Positions 1,049 to 59,216 of a stretch of DNA of 64,000 nucleotides are shown here, one piece after another. The translations under genes and the position numbers were made by a program. Numbering within the stretch: the stretch's first letter is position 1; each line of letters opens with the position of its first letter. The DNA is from Bacteroidota bacterium (GTDB lineage Bacteria; Bacteroidota; Bacteroidia; B-17B0; Aurantibacillaceae): contig JAHBTI010000012.1 in the NCBI GenBank assembly GCA_019638705.1, positions 1-64,000 of the forward strand, in the 5' to 3' direction. The notes under the pieces are model-generated. The model saw only the letters and a list, made by a program, of their open reading frames with translations. It did no database searches and had not been told where the DNA came from.

Positions 1049-2254
1049 GGTTAGTGATTTATAAATGGAAGTATATTTTTCAATCGCCATAGTATTGTCA
1101 AAAAAATCTGAAGCAATTTTTCTGTATGTTCCTGTTGGCACGGAAAGCGCAAGATACTTTTTACAAGCAGTTTCGTATTCTTCCTCCGTAAAAGCGTTAG
1201 TCAAAATTCCGCCTTGATGTGTGTTAAAAAACAAATCGTTATCGCCAATGCCGCTGTTGGTAATAATCGGCAAATCCATTGCCCAACACTCCGCCATTTT
1301 TGTTGGTGAAGAAGCTATTTTGGAGTAAGCAGGTTTTATAAAAAATATGGAAGCCTTTGCCAATACCAGATAAGAAGCCACATCTTTATGCGAAGCACTT
1401 ACCGAAACAACGGTTTGTTTTTCTTCTTCGTTGTACAAAGACAAAATTTTTTCCAACTCAATTTTATCGTTTGTTAGAACAAGCAATTTTATTTCGGGAA
1501 TAAATTTTTTCCACGCTAAGACGCAATCAATCATTTCTTTGGTGTAATACCAAGTGCCGATTGAACCTGTGTAAACAAGAATGTGAGCGTTTTCGGAAAT
1601 ATTCGGTAATGAAATTTGTTTTGCGTTTTCTTTGCTAAATAAATTTGTGTTGGTACAGCACGGAATAACCGTTGTTTTTTTTCTTAAAATTTCTGCGGGA
1701 AAAAATTTTTCCAATTCTGTTACGGCGGCGTTGGTTAAAAACACGTTGGCATCGGAGCGGAGAATAAATTGTTTTTCTTTTTGTTTAAAGAAATTGTAGA
1801 ACAAATTTTCAATCGGATTACTCTTTTTCCAAATTCCGCCGTCAATGCGCTCGTCAGCCCAAAAGCCGCGCGCATCAAACAAAAACGGAATGTTGTATTG
1901 GCGTTTAAAATTTAATCCGATTAAAGAAGCCAAATAACTGCGGCAATGCACCAAACTGAAATTTTTTGTTTTGCGCAAACGGTAGGCTTTAGTACGCAAT
2001 TGATGAATGTACTGCAAGCGCGAAAAAAAACTTCCGTTTTCCTTGTAAATAATATAATCCCATTCAATAGAGGTGTTTTTTATCCGCGACAAAATATTTT
2101 CTTTTTCGCGGTCAAGGCGTTCTTTTTTTTCGCAAGACAAAATGTGAATGTGAAAACCGTTTTGTGCAATGCCTATCAGGTAAGGTAAAATTTGCGATTG
2201 CCCTAAAGGGTCGCTTAGTCCGTCAAATGTGATATAGAGCGTGTTTTTGAGCAA
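1040..2254 (-). CDS. Glycosyltransferase, GT-B fold (GT4-like)
   Basis: Probable cytosolic or membrane-associated sugar transferase of the GT4/GT1 type, 404 residues; acceptor and donor are unknown. The N-terminal half holds LSDPLGQSQILPYL and HCRSYLASLIG. The C-terminal half holds a GSIGTWY segment, like the start of a second Rossmann domain, and a late SPTKMAECWAMDLPIITN stretch that resembles the nucleotide-sugar binding region (E-x7-E type). No ATG is available near the 5' end: an in-frame TAA lies three codons upstream of the TTG at 2252-2254, so TTG (or the adjacent CTG) must be the start. It is upstream of galE on the same strand, consistent with glycan synthesis, but a terminator intervenes. 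Confidence 0.8.
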   Translation of the reverse strand: MLKNTLYITFDGLSDPLGQSQILPYLIGIAQNGFHIHILSCEKKERLDREKENILSRIKNTSIEWDYIIYKENGSFFSRLQYIHQLRTKAYRLRKTKNFSLVHCRSYLASLIGLNFKRQYNIPFLFDARGFWADERIDGGIWKKSNPIENLFYNFFKQKEKQFILRSDANVFLTNAAVTELEKFFPAEILRKKTTVIPCCTNTNLFSKENAKQISLPNISENAHILVYTGSIGTWYYTKEMIDCVLAWKKFIPEIKLLVLTNDKIELEKILSLYNEEEKQTVVSVSASHKDVASYLVLAKASIFFIKPAYSKIASSPTKMAECWAMDLPIITNSGIGDNDLFFNTHQGGILTNAFTEEEYETACKKYLALSVPTGTYRKIASDFFDNTMAIEKYTSIYKSLTKI

Positions 2255-2408
2255 CAGGTTTTATTCTTTATTTTGTTTTTGGCGCACAAATTTAGCATAA
2301 AACAAAAATTAAACTTTTCAAGTTTGGTATTTTTTCTCACTACATTTGTTTGGCAAAGTTCTCTTATTGCTCTCTGTTCTTATTGTTTAATCTTTAAAAA
2401 ACAAAGGC

Positions 2409-24096: not shown

Positions 24097-24279
24097 GTGT
24101 CAGTTCGGGTAGGTTTGCTGCCTCTTCGCAAATTGCGGCAATAATGCAGGTCATTATTGAGCGAGCTTGTGGGAAAGAGAACTGATTTTTCAACACCACT
24201 TCTCGATACGCCCTCATTCTTCGGGCTACTCGAAGTGACAAAGGATACGCCCTCATTCTTCGGGCTACTCGAAGTAACA
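24097..24279 (-). repeat. Dispersed TTCGAGTAGCC repeat, copy B
   Basis: Reverse-oriented relative to copy A. It holds CAGTTCGGGTAGGTTTGCTG at the left, a GAGAACTGATTTTTCAACA centre, then two tandem units of GATACGCCCTCATTCTTCGG. It fills most of the 243-bp gap before the GT9 gene. Confidence 0.85.
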
Positions 24280-24330
24280 AGCAATCTCTTTAATTTGGAA
24301 CAGACATAGCCTCTTTGACAAAAACTTTAA

Positions 24331-28841: not shown

Positions 28842-29219
28842 TTATATTGTATAAGGCTTAAAATTAAGCTCTTTAATGTTATTAAACTCACTTATATTTG
28901 CCGAAATTAAAGGCAGTTTGTTGCTTATGGCAATGGCGGCAATTAAAAAATCTTTTCGGTGTTTTTTATCTGTTGTGTATTTCATTGCCATTGAGTTAGC
29001 TGCAATTATTGCCTTTTCAGAAAACTCCAATACCGTAAAATTGTGAAGCCTTTTGCGAACTCTTTGTTTTGCGGGTTTTGTTGCACCTGCCAATATTTCA
29101 ATGTAATTAATTCGTGTTGTATAAAATTCGGTTGCACCAATTTCCTTAAAAACTTTCAGCATTTTGTTTCTGTGATTTTCAAAGTGAATAATGGCAGTGC
29201 TATCCGAAATTACTTTCAT
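28842..29219 (-). CDS. PIN-domain (VapC-like) ribonuclease toxin
   Basis: A 125-residue single PIN domain, the usual toxin size. It begins MKVISDSTAIIHFEN with the first acidic residue at Asp6. Glu41 sits in NYIEILAG and Asp90 in RKDFLIAAIAISNKLPLIS, the order expected for a PIN active site; the fourth position (usually D near T-x-N-x-x-D-F) is less clear, at SANISEFNN. It would cleave RNA when free of its antitoxin. An 84-bp gap upstream separates it from a 52-codon basic ORF (29304-29462) that is the only candidate partner. Direct repeats flank the pair. Confidence 0.8.
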   Translation of the reverse strand: MKVISDSTAIIHFENHRNKMLKVFKEIGATEFYTTRINYIEILAGATKPAKQRVRKRLHNFTVLEFSEKAIIAANSMAMKYTTDKKHRKDFLIAAIAISNKLPLISANISEFNNIKELNFKPYTI

Positions 29220-29254: not shown

Positions 29255-29308
29255 GAATAGCCATGTCTTTCATTGTTGTTTGTATTTCTGAAATATGGCT
29301 ATTTCATA
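29255..29308. promoter_or_regulatory. Inverted repeat between small ORF and PIN gene
   Basis: ATGGAATAGCCAT on the left pairs with ATGGCTATTTCAT on the right with one mismatch, across about 25 bp. The site spans the 3' end of the small ORF and the PIN leader, so it could be an operator or an mRNA hairpin that limits toxin translation. Confidence 0.45.
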
Positions 29309-29462
29309 TAATATTCATTTTAGATAAATAAACGCCATCTTTGTTTAAGCCGTCAATCATTGCGGTTAATTGTTCAATGCTTATGCCGCGTTTGCCTTTT
29401 ACTCTTCGGTTTTTCTTCGCCGCGTTTTTTACCGCTTTTCTTTTTTTAATCATTGATGCCAT
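29304..29462 (-). CDS. Small basic ORF, candidate antitoxin partner of the PIN protein
   Basis: A 52-residue frame read by eye: ATG at 29460-29462, stop TGA at 29304-29306. The N-terminal 25 residues are very basic (MASMIKKRKAVKNAAKKNRR), then ISIEQLTAMIDGLNKDGVYLSK, which resembles a short helix pair. Position upstream of a PIN toxin on the same strand suggests an antitoxin, but the basic start is unlike a typical acidic toxin-binding tail. Reading past the TGA, the frame stays open for 20 more codons, so a nonsense mutation in a longer (about 73-residue) protein is possible. No family recognised. Confidence 0.4.
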   Translation of the reverse strand: MASMIKKRKAVKNAAKKNRRVKGKRGISIEQLTAMIDGLNKDGVYLSKMNII

Positions 29463-29615: not shown

Positions 29616-29701
29616 GGGGGGGGGGTAAATGTAAGAATTGGGGCGGTAATGTTATATTTTAAGGCAAAAAAGTAAAATTGAACATTGATAATTTTACATT
29701 G

Positions 29702-29753
29702 AACAGGGGTTTGTGGGCAGATTTTTAATGTTAGTTGTTTAATTATTAATGTT
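29702..29753 (+). repeat. 52-bp direct repeat, left copy
   Basis: Starts AACAGGGGTTTGTGGGCAGA and ends ATTAATGTT; matches 29935-29986 at 50 of 52 positions. The two copies bracket the CCTTTCAGGG element. Confidence 0.9.
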
Positions 29754-29773
29754 ACATTTTTTTGGCGGCGTTA

Positions 29774-29934: not shown

Positions 29935-29986
29935 AACAGGGGTTTGGGGGCAGATTTTTAATGTTAGTTGTTTAATGATTAATGTT
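29935..29986 (+). repeat. 52-bp direct repeat, right copy
   Basis: Starts AACAGGGGTTTGGGGGCAGA; two substitutions relative to 29702-29753. Confidence 0.9.
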
Positions 29987-29993
29987 GTGTGAA

Positions 29994-30179
29994 TTACATC
30001 ATTAATTTAACGGCGGCTATCATCAACCCCGCTAAGGCTACATTTGTAGCAATAAGCCACCGTATAATGTCCACTTTGGCATTGGCAATTTTACTTTCAA
30101 GTTCGGCAAGTGTTTTAGCTTGCACTTCGCCAATTTTTTCTTTGAGCAAATTATACAATTCTATTTTGGTAACTACCAA
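29994..30179 (-). CDS. Mini coiled-coil protein with C-terminal membrane anchor
   Basis: A 61-residue protein beginning with a TTG at 30177-30179: VVTKIELYNLLKEKIGEVQA, then a helical LAELESKIANAKVDIIRW and a hydrophobic anchor LIATNVALAGLMIAAVKLMM. It resembles a shortened CCDC90/DUF1640-like protein. The open frame runs on upstream to an ATG at 30299, but those residues are translated repeat DNA. TATCTTTA at 30185-30192 is a near-consensus -7 box that would place transcription at the TTG itself, so the mRNA may be leaderless. It is divergent from the Fic gene across the 70-bp repeats. Function unknown. Confidence 0.5.
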   Translation of the reverse strand: MVVTKIELYNLLKEKIGEVQAKTLAELESKIANAKVDIIRWLIATNVALAGLMIAAVKLMM

Positions 30180-30240
30180 TGAACTAAAGATACGGTTTTT
30201 TTGAAAAACCGGTTGGGTTTTATATTGTGGAAAATTGTTC

Positions 30241-30430
30241 GTTCCAAAAAATGAACACGTTTTTACTATTTGTTCATTTTTTAATAAAAAAGTGAACATT
30301 TAATTTATTCATTCCAAAAAATGGACACGTTTTCACTATATGTCCATTTTTTAATAAAAAAGTGAACATTTAATTTTTTTGTTCCAAAAAATGGACATAT
30401 TTTTGCTATCTGTCCAATTTTTAATAAAAA
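30241..30430 (+). repeat. Three tandem 70-bp repeats upstream of the Fic gene
   Basis: Units begin at 30241, 30311 and 30381 (GTTCCAAAAAATG or ATTCCAAAAAATG) with an exact 70-bp period. The third is cut at 50 bp by the Fic start codon. In the first two units the position equivalent to the start codon reads AAAGTGAACATT, so the repeat looks like a duplicated promoter-to-start segment. The last half unit leads directly into ATGAACACATC. Confidence 0.92.
30246..30422. promoter_or_regulatory. Three operator-like palindromes with covarying arms
   Basis: Each 70-bp unit contains 12-bp arms 13 bp apart. Unit 1: AAAAAATGAACA (30246-30257) with TGTTCATTTTTT (30271-30282). Unit 2: AAAAAATGGACA (30316-30327) with TGTCCATTTTTT (30341-30352). 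Unit 3: AAAAAATGGACA (30386-30397) with TGTCCAATTTTT (30411-30422). The A-to-G change in the left arm between units 1 and 2 is matched by T-to-C in the right arm. The Fic protein ends in a winged helix, a plausible binder. Confidence 0.65.
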
Positions 30431-31552
30431 ATGAACACATCAAAAAATATCAAATACGACCGAAACGTTCCTTACAACAATTTGCCGGAGTTGCCGCCCT
30501 CGGAAAGCATTATTGATAAAGAAGTTTTACTGAAATGGGGCTTGGCTTCGCGTGCTTTGGCTGAACTAAACAAAAACGTATTGCGAATGCCAAACCCGCT
30601 GATGCTGATAAACACCATTTCATTGCAGGAAGCGCAAAGTTCTACCGCCATTGAAAATATTTTTACTACCGAAGATGAATTGTATAAAGCCGTGAGCGAT
30701 ACCGTAAAAGAAGAAACTGCAAACCCTGCCACCAAAGAAGTGCTGCGCTACCGCGAGGCATTGTGGAGCGGCTACACAGCACTTTCAAAAAAGAAAACGT
30801 TTGACAAAAGCATTGCCGTAAAAATATTTCAGCAGGTAAAAAACACCCGGCAAGGCATTCGTCCGCAACAATCACAGGTAACTATTAAACGCGGACAAAG
30901 CGAGTTTAAGTCGGGAGAAATTATATACACGCCACCTCGTGGCGCAGGCATTGTAGAAAAAAAATTAAACAACCTGTTTGAGTTTTTAAACAACAACACC
31001 GCGTTTGACCCTTTGCTTAAAATGGCTGTTGCGCATTATCAGTTTGAAGCCATACACCCTTTTACCGACGGCAACGGACGTACAGGCAGAATTTTAAATT
31101 TGCTGTATTTGGTTCATCAAAAATTGCTGTCGCACCCTGTGCTGTATTTGAGCAAATACATTATTATGCACAAAGACGATTATTATCACCGTTTGGCAGG
31201 TGTTACGCAGCGTGGCGCATGGAAACCCTGGCTTTTGTTTATGCTGAATGCGGTAGAAGCCACCGCACAGCACAGCAACCAAAAAATTGACGAAATACTG
31301 GCACAAATGGAAGCCACACACAAACACGCACAAAAAAAACTGAAATGGTATTCTTACGAACTCAATCAAGCCTTGTTTTCGCAGCCATACATAAAACAAA
31401 AATTAGTAGGCGAAATCAGCGGTGCAACAAGCCGAACCACACTTACCAAATATATGCAGCAACTTGCCGAACTTGGTGTACTTTCTGCGCAGGTTGAGGG
31501 CAGAGAGGTTTTTTACATAAATGATGATTTGCTTAGAATTTTGCAGGAATAA
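30431..31552 (+). CDS. Fic-family protein (AMPylase) with inhibitory helix and winged-helix domain
   Basis: A 373-residue cytosolic Fic enzyme that would transfer AMP (or another nucleotide moiety) from NTP to a target hydroxyl. The catalytic motif HPFTDGNGRTGR is complete (about residues 200-211). An N-terminal segment contains STAIEN, matching the (S/T)xxxE(G/N) inhibitory helix of class II Fic proteins, whose Glu blocks ATP. A C-terminal winged helix (EISGATSRTTLTKYMQQLAELGVL) suggests DNA binding and self-regulation through the upstream palindromes. No separate antitoxin gene is adjacent. The start ATG is fixed by the repeat boundary and family N-terminus. Confidence 0.9.
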   Translation: MNTSKNIKYDRNVPYNNLPELPPSESIIDKEVLLKWGLASRALAELNKNVLRMPNPLMLINTISLQEAQSSTAIENIFTTEDELYKAVSDTVKEETANPATKEVLRYREALWSGYTALSKKKTFDKSIAVKIFQQVKNTRQGIRPQQSQVTIKRGQSEFKSGEIIYTPPRGAGIVEKKLNNLFEFLNNNTAFDPLLKMAVAHYQFEAIHPFTDGNGRTGRILNLLYLVHQKLLSHPVLYLSKYIIMHKDDYYHRLAGVTQRGAWKPWLLFMLNAVEATAQHSNQKIDEILAQMEATHKHAQKKLKWYSYELNQALFSQPYIKQKLVGEISGATSRTTLTKYMQQLAELGVLSAQVEGREVFYINDDLLRILQE

Positions 31553-57176: not shown

Positions 57177-59216
57177 TTACTCTTTCACAAATTTGCTCAT
57201 CGCATTTCCGATTTTTATAAAATAAATGCCGCTTTTTAGCTCGCGCACGTTCACACGCGCAGAGTTATTAATTATGAGTGATGAGTTATGAATGACGGTG
57301 TTTCCTAAAATATCATATACATAAATTTCAACTTCTGTTTTTCCATTTAACATTTCCCATTCAACATTCAACATTTCAGAACTTGGGTTCGGATAAACTT
57401 TAAACCCTGCAATGTCCGAATAGTTATGAATACCAACCGTGTCTGTTGTACAGGCATCTACCAAAACAGCAATACTTTCCTGCAAGGTGTTTGTACACGA
57501 GGTGCTGTTGCTTCTGCCAATAACGGCGGCATTGTAAGACACATTGCCTGCGCTTGTAAAAGCAGGGGTTATTAGCCTTAGATTGCCTGTGCCGCCTGCT
57601 GTGCCTGCCGATGTCCATGTATAAGCATTAGCTCCCAAAGCTATTAAGGTTGCCGAACCGTTAATGCACACAGTCGAGGTGATAGCAGATACCGTAAGGC
57701 TTGGCAATGCTTTTAAATTAATGCTGAATGTTGTTGTTTTAGTACAGCCGTTGTTATTAATTCCTGTAACAGAATACGTTGTTGGGGAGTTGGGGCTTAA
57801 CACAAACGATGTGCCTGTTTGATTGTTGTTTAACGTATAAGATACACCGCCTGTTGGGCTTATGGTGGCACTACTGCCCACGCAGATATTTTGACTGTTT
57901 ACCGAAATGTTGGGCTGGGGATTTACATTTATAGTAACCGTAGCGGTATAAGTAGAAACATGATTGCTTATGTTGCAGGAGCTAAACAAGCTGTATGTGC
58001 TGCTTGTGGCAGGACTTACACTAATGCTTGGGCTTGTTTGCCCTGTACTCCATGTGTAAGACGAAGCTGTGCCGCTTAATGTGAGCACTGCCGAATTGCC
58101 TGCGCAAATTACAGTAGCCGAACTCGCAATGTCTGCACTGCCTGTACTGCCGCAATAAACTTTTCGCACACGATGATTACCCATATCGGCAATATATACA
58201 TTGGCATTAACAGCATCTACGGCTACGCCGACAGGATTGTTTAATTGCGCTGCTGTGGCAAGCCCTCCGTCTCCGCTAAAACCCCATGTGCCTGCTGTGC
58301 CTGCTATGGTGGTAATAATGCCGTTGCTGCTTACTTTGCGTATGCAGTTATTGTCGGTAATATATACATTACCTGCAGCATCCACAGCTACACCGCTTGG
58401 GGAACTTAATCCCGCTACTGTGGCAAGCCCTCCGTCTCCGCTAAAGCCCAACAAACCACCACCTGCTATGGTAGTAATAATACCGTTAGTGCTTACTTTG
58501 CGTATGCGGTTATTTCCCATATCTGCAATATATACATTGCCCGCAGCATCTACGGCTACACCGTGTGGGTTATTTAATTGTGCTGCTGTGGCTGCCCCAC
58601 CGTCGCCACTAAAACCACCGTTACTAGACCCTGTTGCCCCACTTCCTGCTATGGTAGTAATAATGCCGTTTGTGCTTACTTTGCGTATGCGGTTATTCCA
58701 AGTATCTGCAATATATACATTGCCTGCAGCATCTACGGCTACACCGCCTGGGTAGTTTAATGCCGCTGCTGTGGCAAGCCCTCCGTCTCCACTAAAGCCA
58801 AATCCGCCAATGCCTGCAATGGTAGTAATAATGCCATTTGTGCTTACTTTGCGTATGCGGGTAGTCTCTGCAATATATACATTGCCCACAGCATCTACGG
58901 CTACAGCGCGTGTGCTGCCTAATGGTGCTGCTGTGGCTGCCCCGCCGTCGCCACTAAAGCCCGACCCACCATTACCTGCAATGGTAGTAATAATGCCGTT
59001 GGTACTTACTTTGCGTATTCTGCCATTGCCGGTAATATATACATTACCTGCAGCATCTGTAGCTACATCTCTTGGGAAGATTAATTGCGCCGCTGTGGCT
59101 ACCCCACCGTCGCCACTAAAACCACCTGTGCTTGTGCCTGCTATGGTGTTTATTACATATTGAGCATTTGCATTTAAGCAAAACATAATTGCCAATAGTG
59201 TGATTAGTTTTTTCAT
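57177..59216 (-). CDS. Secreted NHL-repeat propeller protein with Ig-like and T9SS sorting domains
   Basis: A 679-residue exported protein (signal MKKLITLLAIMFCLNANAQ). Residues 20-345 hold six NHL-type repeats, each with GFSGDGGxATAA, a GVAVDAAGNVYIAD core and IRKVSTNGIITTIAG, forming a beta-propeller. The repeats are nearly identical in DNA as well as protein. Two Ig-like or PKD-like modules follow (about 360-580, VCINGSATLIALGANAYTW and similar). A T9SS type A domain ends it (YPNPSSEMLNVEWEM...SGIYFIKIG). Its start overlaps the 97-residue gene's stop codon (ATGA), so the two are coupled. Likely a surface-binding protein. Confidence 0.85.
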   Translation of the reverse strand: MKKLITLLAIMFCLNANAQYVINTIAGTSTGGFSGDGGVATAAQLIFPRDVATDAAGNVYITGNGRIRKVSTNGIITTIAGNGGSGFSGDGGAATAAPLGSTRAVAVDAVGNVYIAETTRIRKVSTNGIITTIAGIGGFGFSGDGGLATAAALNYPGGVAVDAAGNVYIADTWNNRIRKVSTNGIITTIAGSGATGSSNGGFSGDGGAATAAQLNNPHGVAVDAAGNVYIADMGNNRIRKVSTNGIITTIAGGGLLGFSGDGGLATVAGLSSPSGVAVDAAGNVYITDNNCIRKVSSNGIITTIAGTAGTWGFSGDGGLATAAQLNNPVGVAVDAVNANVYIADMGNHRVRKVYCGSTGSADIASSATVICAGNSAVLTLSGTASSYTWSTGQTSPSISVSPATSSTYSLFSSCNISNHVSTYTATVTINVNPQPNISVNSQNICVGSSATISPTGGVSYTLNNNQTGTSFVLSPNSPTTYSVTGINNNGCTKTTTFSINLKALPSLTVSAITSTVCINGSATLIALGANAYTWTSAGTAGGTGNLRLITPAFTSAGNVSYNAAVIGRSNSTSCTNTLQESIAVLVDACTTDTVGIHNYSDIAGFKVYPNPSSEMLNVEWEMLNGKTEVEIYVYDILGNTVIHNSSLIINNSARVNVRELKSGIYFIKIGNAMSKFVKE
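58140..59160 (-). repeat. Six tandem repeats of about 165 bp inside the NHL gene
   Basis: The motifs CAATATATACATT, GCATCTACGGCTACA and ATGGTAGTAATAATGCCG recur in order, about 150-175 bp apart (for example near 58311, 58466, 58651, 58819, 58980 for ATGGTAGTAATAATGCCG or a variant). Each unit is one NHL blade. Low divergence implies recent duplication or gene conversion. Confidence 0.85.

Follow-up and report, generated by a model that had tools for sequence, protein, structure and literature searches.

A putative autoregulatory operator lattice of 70-bp period in front of a SoFic-type fic gene from Bacteroidota

Among the described systems closest to the locus reported here is CccR of Yersinia pseudotuberculosis, a Fic protein with a C-terminal winged helix-turn-helix (wHTH) domain that represses its own promoter, as demonstrated by EMSA, footprint, and reporter assays (PMC9755527). 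Autorepression by CccR requires dimerisation, and its DNA-reading helices are placed 70 Å apart (PMC9755527). With regard to the SoFic family, Kinch et al. (2009) recognized the wHTH domain in the SoFic structure and proposed that HTH domains fused to Fic may regulate fic (PMC2686095); the authors of the CbFic2 study pointed out that DNA binding by SoFic was never shown (PMC10628234). For EcSofic of E. coli H397, leaky expression is toxic, an N-terminal helix mediates dimerisation, and the C-terminal domain, whose orientation differs between structures, is required for toxicity (PMC12249575). How SoFic is silenced in healthy cells and released upon infection was stated to be unknown (PMC12249575). 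Two further systems share individual traits with our locus: AbiEi of the AbiE phage-defence locus, in which a wHTH domain exerts negative autoregulation at inverted repeats (PMC3985639), and Phd/Doc, an autoregulated operon encoding a toxin of Fic fold (PMC2686095).

The window, i.e., the whole stretch of 64,000 nt that was analysed, contains on its plus strand a fic gene (30431-31552) for a SoFic-type protein adenylyltransferase of 373 aa, as assigned by Pfam, PADLOC, invariant alignment columns, and Foldseek. Its product comprises the Pfam domains Fic_N, Fic (PF02661, 1.1e-16), and SoFic-like_C (PF21248, 1.2e-14), and matches the PADLOC model SoFic with E=1.6e-105. The Fic core motif HPFx(D/E)GNGRxxR is intact (HPFTDGNGRTGR, residues 209-220), as is the N-terminal inhibitory helix motif (S/T)xxxE(G/N), represented by S71-TAI-E75-N76, of which S71, E75, and N76 were invariant in 46 aligned sequences. 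Since the NCBIfam SoFic equivalog score of 380 stays under the cut-off of 550, the protein represents a divergent member of the family. Using an AlphaFold2 model (mean pLDDT 86.9), the top PDB matches in Foldseek were all S. oneidensis SoFic (TM 0.88-0.91; 0.91 to 3zcn). The SoFic-like_C domain (residues 293-367; 31307-31531, plus strand; PF21248, AlphaFold2) forms a wHTH in the model, with helices at residues 309-315, 323-330, and 335-347 and a wing at 352-356/359-363, and is part of one chain with the Fic domain, in agreement with the winged-helix tail that a preliminary description of this DNA had ascribed to the downstream Fic protein. The recognition helix proper comprises residues 335-347; together with its N-terminal turn it spans residues 333-347 (TSRTTLTKYMQQLAE; 31427-31471, plus strand).

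The protein thus shares family, fold, class II inhibitory motif, and Fic motif with SO_4266 of S. oneidensis and with EcSofic (PMC12249575, PMC3667792). Unlike for our locus with its putative operator, neither DNA binding nor an operator was reported for these proteins (PMC12249575, PMC3667792), and the C-terminal domain of EcSofic was described as a toxicity regulator only. Furthermore, EcSofic is followed by a gene for a 47-aa antitoxin, for which fic of the window has no room, as the next gene lies only 41 bp beyond it. A type II toxin-antitoxin operon is not indicated either, since no ORF of at least 70 aa, and hence no cognate antitoxin of that size, recurred as a neighbour in more than 3 of 46 loci. 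Whereas in Phd/Doc it is the antitoxin that binds DNA, here a single polypeptide carries both the toxin and the presumed DNA-binding domain; AbiEi likewise differs in being a separate antitoxin not fused to Fic, which acts at two sites without any lattice (PMC3985639).

Directly in front of fic lies a putative operator lattice of three 70-bp units (30232-30441, no strand assigned), which was delineated by repeat search and Tandem Repeats Finder and runs with its third unit into the fic start. The units begin at 30232, 30302, and 30372 (spacing 70/70), with identities to unit 1 of 90% for unit 2 and 74% for unit 3 in the repeat search; Tandem Repeats Finder returned 30238-30437, period 70, 2.9 copies, 88% matches, and a score of 309. 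The exact period and the three units noted in the preliminary description are thus real, although the array extends beyond the 30241-30430 given there, and its last unit is indeed cut by the start codon, as the start at 30431 falls inside the half-site ATGAACA. The 12-bp inverted repeat claimed for every unit is complete in unit 1 (30246-30257/30271-30282) and unit 2 (30316-30327/30341-30352), but only 11/12 in unit 3; it consists of TGRACA-N13-TGTYCA lengthened by A/T runs. Instead of the single dyad per unit assumed before, each unit contains two, because a third half-site (30293, 30363, 30432) is joined by a degenerate fourth. Along the array, dyad A of unit 1 (TGAACA-N13-TGTTCA, 30252-30276) is followed by the plus-strand half-site TGAACA of dyad B (30293-30298), whose right arm is degenerate, and dyad A of unit 2 (TGGACA-N13-TGTCCA, 30322-30346) by the plus-strand TGAACA of its dyad B (30363-30368). 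Both A dyads were located by repeat and motif scans. The promoter-proximal dyad A of unit 3 (TGGACA-N13-TGTCCA, 30392-30416), like the other two without assigned strand, precedes a plus-strand TGAACA across the fic start codon (30432-30437). Exact TGRACA/TGTYCA half-sites span 30252 to 30437 and amount to nine per 210 nt of the array, a density far beyond chance given the roughly 1.1 per kb of the window as a whole. A dispersed repeat or mobile element was ruled out, as the array sequence is single-copy across its own genome (3.2 Mb, 99.9% complete).

This layout resembles CccR in that a Fic AMPylase with a C-terminal winged helix is preceded by promoter inverted repeats, but CccR reads one pair of 10-bp boxes spaced by N26, whereas nine half-sites here form a 19-21-19-11 lattice of period 70, in which 6-bp cores are separated by N13 and N15/16. 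CccR, moreover, is a secreted effector and belongs to another Fic subfamily. We therefore liken the array to CccR in its predicted working and do not class it as the same type of operator. By simple arithmetic, half-sites 19-21 bp apart would be separated by 65-71 Å, close to the distance between the DNA-reading helices of CccR.

The neighbourhood contains several features in their own right. A small divergent ORF on the minus strand (29994-30299), whose tail is coiled-coil-like and membrane-like, enters the array in its longest reading and had no match in Pfam or NCBIfam. Near-identical copies of 'aacaggggtttgtgggcagatttttaatgttagttgtttaat.attaatgtt' (29700-29760 and 29935-29990) bracket inverted repeats of the 'ccctttcagggcg' type, possibly as a small mobile or REP-like element. 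Near fic, a PIN-domain gene (28842-29219; Pfam PIN) and a basic 52-aa ORF upstream of it (29304-29462), both on the minus strand, make a possible toxin-antitoxin pair. A 39-bp tandem repeat, GATACGCCCTCATTCTTCGGGCTACTCGAAGTAACAAAG (24205-24280), occurs again near the end of L117 (contig C12) and is a dispersed repeat of the genome, and a 162-bp repeat array of five and a half copies (58189-59120) probably encodes a repeat protein of NHL or beta-propeller type.

Within the same Fic clade, sampled as 37 loci including the window and nearly all from Bacteroidota, half-sites alternate in orientation with rigid spacing, namely 19 bp from plus to minus, 21/22 from minus to plus, 19 from plus to minus, and 10/11 from minus to plus. 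The 19-bp plus-to-minus step was counted in 60 pairs and the 21/22-bp minus-to-plus step in 70, and same-strand steps of 40 and 30 add up to the period of 70. Half-sites are dense only upstream of fic, with 6.2 per 235 nt there and 0.26 in 549 windows elsewhere in these clade loci. Thus, the comparison with relatives suggested earlier found the dyads kept, but the unit number variable (about 1.5 to 3). In several relatives (L008-L012) the last half-site is placed just 5' of a later ATG, so that what is preserved is the DNA site rather than a stretch of codons.

Other SoFic clades use different letters, such as TGTCAAA, TCGACA, GAGGGTAAA, CATTAA, and TTTACATG, among others, at nearly the same spacing. 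The pitch was also recovered with no motif assumed, by counting direct-repeat lags in 174 non-redundant SoFic loci. In the 128 of these that lie outside the window's clade, the three top lags were 30 (49 loci), 40 (43), and 70 (33), against a median of 7; control regions gave, at these three lags, 12, 3, and 11 inside the gene and 17, 8, and 3 further upstream. The 70-bp pitch is therefore a property of the SoFic family. Some SoFic loci, including several from Proteobacteria apparently within operons, displayed no recognisable lattice.

The proximal dyad spans a promoter element. A -7 box, TATTTTTG (30398-30405, plus strand), matches the Bacteroidota consensus TAnnTTTG (PMC7366714) inside the dyad at 30392-30416, so that inverted repeats lie over the gene's own promoter. 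In the clade, TAnnTTTG is present in 18/23 proximal dyads versus 1/53 upstream dyads, and its distance to the start hardly varies; units 1 and 2 of the window have CGTTTTTA and CGTTTTCA at that place. Functionally, the array is not a series of repeated promoter-to-start segments, as had been proposed, because the proximal unit alone keeps the box. No -33 element was identified at the fic promoter, and a scan for sigma-70 promoters, which are not of the Bacteroidota type, stayed at chance level. The same distribution bears on whether the array might have arisen solely by neutral duplication, in tandem, of some upstream sequence. With 90% identity between units 1 and 2, spacers included, a recent duplication probably shaped this copy, the units of the window having probably arisen by duplication of one full lattice period. 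However, the 70-bp pitch with its 40/30 subdivision is shared by unrelated sequences whose letters differ, and half-sites are retained where the -7 box is not, which renders neutral duplication as the whole explanation extremely improbable.

Alternatively, the inverted repeats might act in the leader transcript of fic, as RNA hairpins or attenuators. Taken singly, the units of this sequence give good RNA folds (z -4.9, -4.9, and -3.1), and the change of A to G in one arm is matched by T to C in the other, from which the preliminary description had argued that symmetry itself is maintained. This paired change is real across the three units, but it does not reflect maintained pairing: at the A/G position of 64 inward clade dyads the arms vary independently (AA 13, AG 17, GA 12, GG 22; Fisher p=0.61), the variable pair is mismatched in 29 of the 64, and the arms of 71 outward clade pairs were likewise independent. 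Most simply, the two arms would have acquired their letters independently of each other at a degenerate position. Consequently, covariation was the wrong argument for an operator, and with arm independence both the symmetry argument and the RNA-hairpin reading fall, while the operator reading stands. In addition, with the -7 box inside the proximal dyad, transcripts would start near 30412 and leave most of that dyad untranscribed. An RNA element was rejected, as no Rfam match was obtained and the hairpins are broken in relatives; we give this reading almost no credence.

Half-site letters instead follow the recognition helix of the Fic protein. The helix SRTT was found in 42/42 TGRACA loci, S(V/L/I)NTAKKY in TGTCAAA loci, KT(V/A)GNY in GAGGGTAAA loci, and mostly SRITA in TTTACATG loci, and KRQTA accompanies TCGACA in Pseudomonadota, Balneolota, Ignavibacteriota, Armatimonadota, Melainabacteria, and Bacteroidota. 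In class-balanced mutual information with the half-site letters, residues 336, 333, and 339, whose spacing fits a single face of the recognition helix, rank 1, 2, and 3 of 365 columns. Within the Y-x-R subgroup, N, V, or K at residue 336 pairs with CATTAA, CACTAA, or CGGTAA, respectively, and the letters switch several times on a core tree built without the winged helix; an independent-pair test of this subgroup gave 2-3 supported contrasts, too few for significance in a sign test. Two exceptions, L120 and L195, have N336 yet CCTTAA half-sites. Both carry T at residue 332, where the rest of the subgroup has I, L, M, or V, and this residue is a possible further specificity position. Shared ancestry inflates all letter-residue correlations, and the per-column class-balanced test is cleaner than a sliding window. 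In the latter, excluding the window's clade, residues 35-61 reached 0.29 versus 0.24 for residues 325-341; coupling is thus not confined to the recognition helix, as the dimer-helix region scores as high or slightly higher, and we dropped this only partly clean correlation as proof of helix specificity. Inside the window's clade alone, in which letters barely vary, there was no signal of coupling.

The letter code was also put to a prediction. The rule that a KRQTA helix goes with a TCGACA lattice was recorded before the Gammaproteobacteria loci were fetched, having been derived from TCGACA loci that already included a few Pseudomonadota (e.g., L100, L107, L121, and L122). Counting at least three TCGACA sites as positive, 4/6 loci with strict KRQT, 4/4 with HRET/QRQT, and 0/17 with other helices were positive. 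Strict KRQT against other helices (4/6 vs 0/17) gives 15/8855 = 0.002, calculated by hand, and pooling KRQT with HRET/QRQT (8/10 vs 0/17) gives p=2e-5, although this widening was chosen after the data had been seen. Many TCGACA sites in these loci conform to the 19/21/30/11 spacing; in L224 and L233, which also have a KRQT helix, the predicted sites are missing. For S. oneidensis SoFic, the member studied best, whose helix reads KRQTASVY, the rule would predict TCGACA sites.

Some winged-helix repressors govern many genes, and the repeats could accordingly be sites of another regulator, e.g., a host global transcription factor that runs fic together with other genes. However, across phyla the letters track the Fic recognition helix and not the host, and no linked regulator gene recurs in 46 loci. 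Genome-wide, the exact inward dyad has beyond the array just one match, located in a coding region and taken as chance, and the exact outward dyad just one other site. Furthermore, this one genome contains two SoFic paralogues with different half-sites, each suited to its own helix: the second (L118; G000:C7:8000-12500, minus strand) has CGAGRGTAAA half-sites upstream of fic in 30/40 steps. We consider control by another regulator improbable. Apart from these two, the genome has a third Fic gene with no recognised SoFic-like_C domain (L119; G000:C1:138500-142500, about 2170-2260, minus strand); an A/T-rich repeat in two copies (ACTTAAATAA ... TATATTTAACTTT) immediately precedes its start.

Taken as predicted from sequence, the array would serve the SoFic-type fic downstream of it as operator, and the product of fic would repress its own gene, a reading to which we assign a probability of about 0.82. 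The cooperative binding of operator half-sites and autoregulation by the winged helix proposed in the preliminary description hence gain strong support from the conserved lattice, the helix-tracking letters, the prediction, and the overlap with the -7 box. From these we infer binding, its cooperativity, and repression over activation as follows. Fic dimers would form via the N-terminal helix, as in E. coli Sofic, and the C-terminal winged helices of a dimer would sit on TGRACA half-sites 19 or 21 bp apart, so that several dimers could line up side by side along the fixed 70-bp lattice (19, 21, 19, 11). Since the -7 box falls within the proximal dyad and the start codon within another half-site, occupancy would block initiation. 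The upstream units, which kept half-sites and no -7 box, may add cooperative binding and thereby sharpen repression of a toxic AMPylase. If free Fic falls or Fic quits the DNA, presumably during events such as phage takeover, fic would be derepressed.

Fic might also bind the lattice and activate transcription, or merely store itself there. Upstream half-sites lie where activators bind, and since toxicity of E. coli Sofic needs its C-terminal domain, DNA binding could gate activity. Yet the -7 box is located under the proximal dyad and the start codon under a half-site, CccR represses, and the toxicity of leaky Sofic expression favours repression as well; we regard activation or storage as unlikely. 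Alongside autorepression, DNA binding might nevertheless also be coupled to the activity of the enzyme, given that the C-terminal domain of EcSofic is needed for toxicity and varies in orientation between structures. Extending autorepression by the lattice-bound protein further, we tentatively hypothesize, as a rather doubtful proposition, that SoFic dimers form an ordered array on the 70-bp lattice that serves as a toxin switch, in which DNA binding gates both AMPylase and transcription, and that a fast-evolving private letter code insulates paralogous defence toxins in one cell.

Both the multi-site lattice and the letter code of SoFic genes appear to be undescribed. The earlier statement that no such array is known for a Fic gene holds insofar as no report of a SoFic lattice was found in the literature searched (open-licence full texts; subscription journals or preprints may contain one), but CccR has been proven to repress itself at a single palindrome (PMC9755527).

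SoFic is a widespread single-protein phage-defence toxin, and the lattice offers a concrete, testable answer to the question of its silencing: a dedicated operator lattice, present in several phyla, that would be read by the toxin's own winged helix through a code of three residues. From the sequence of a SoFic not yet characterised, one could thereby predict the letters of its target sites.
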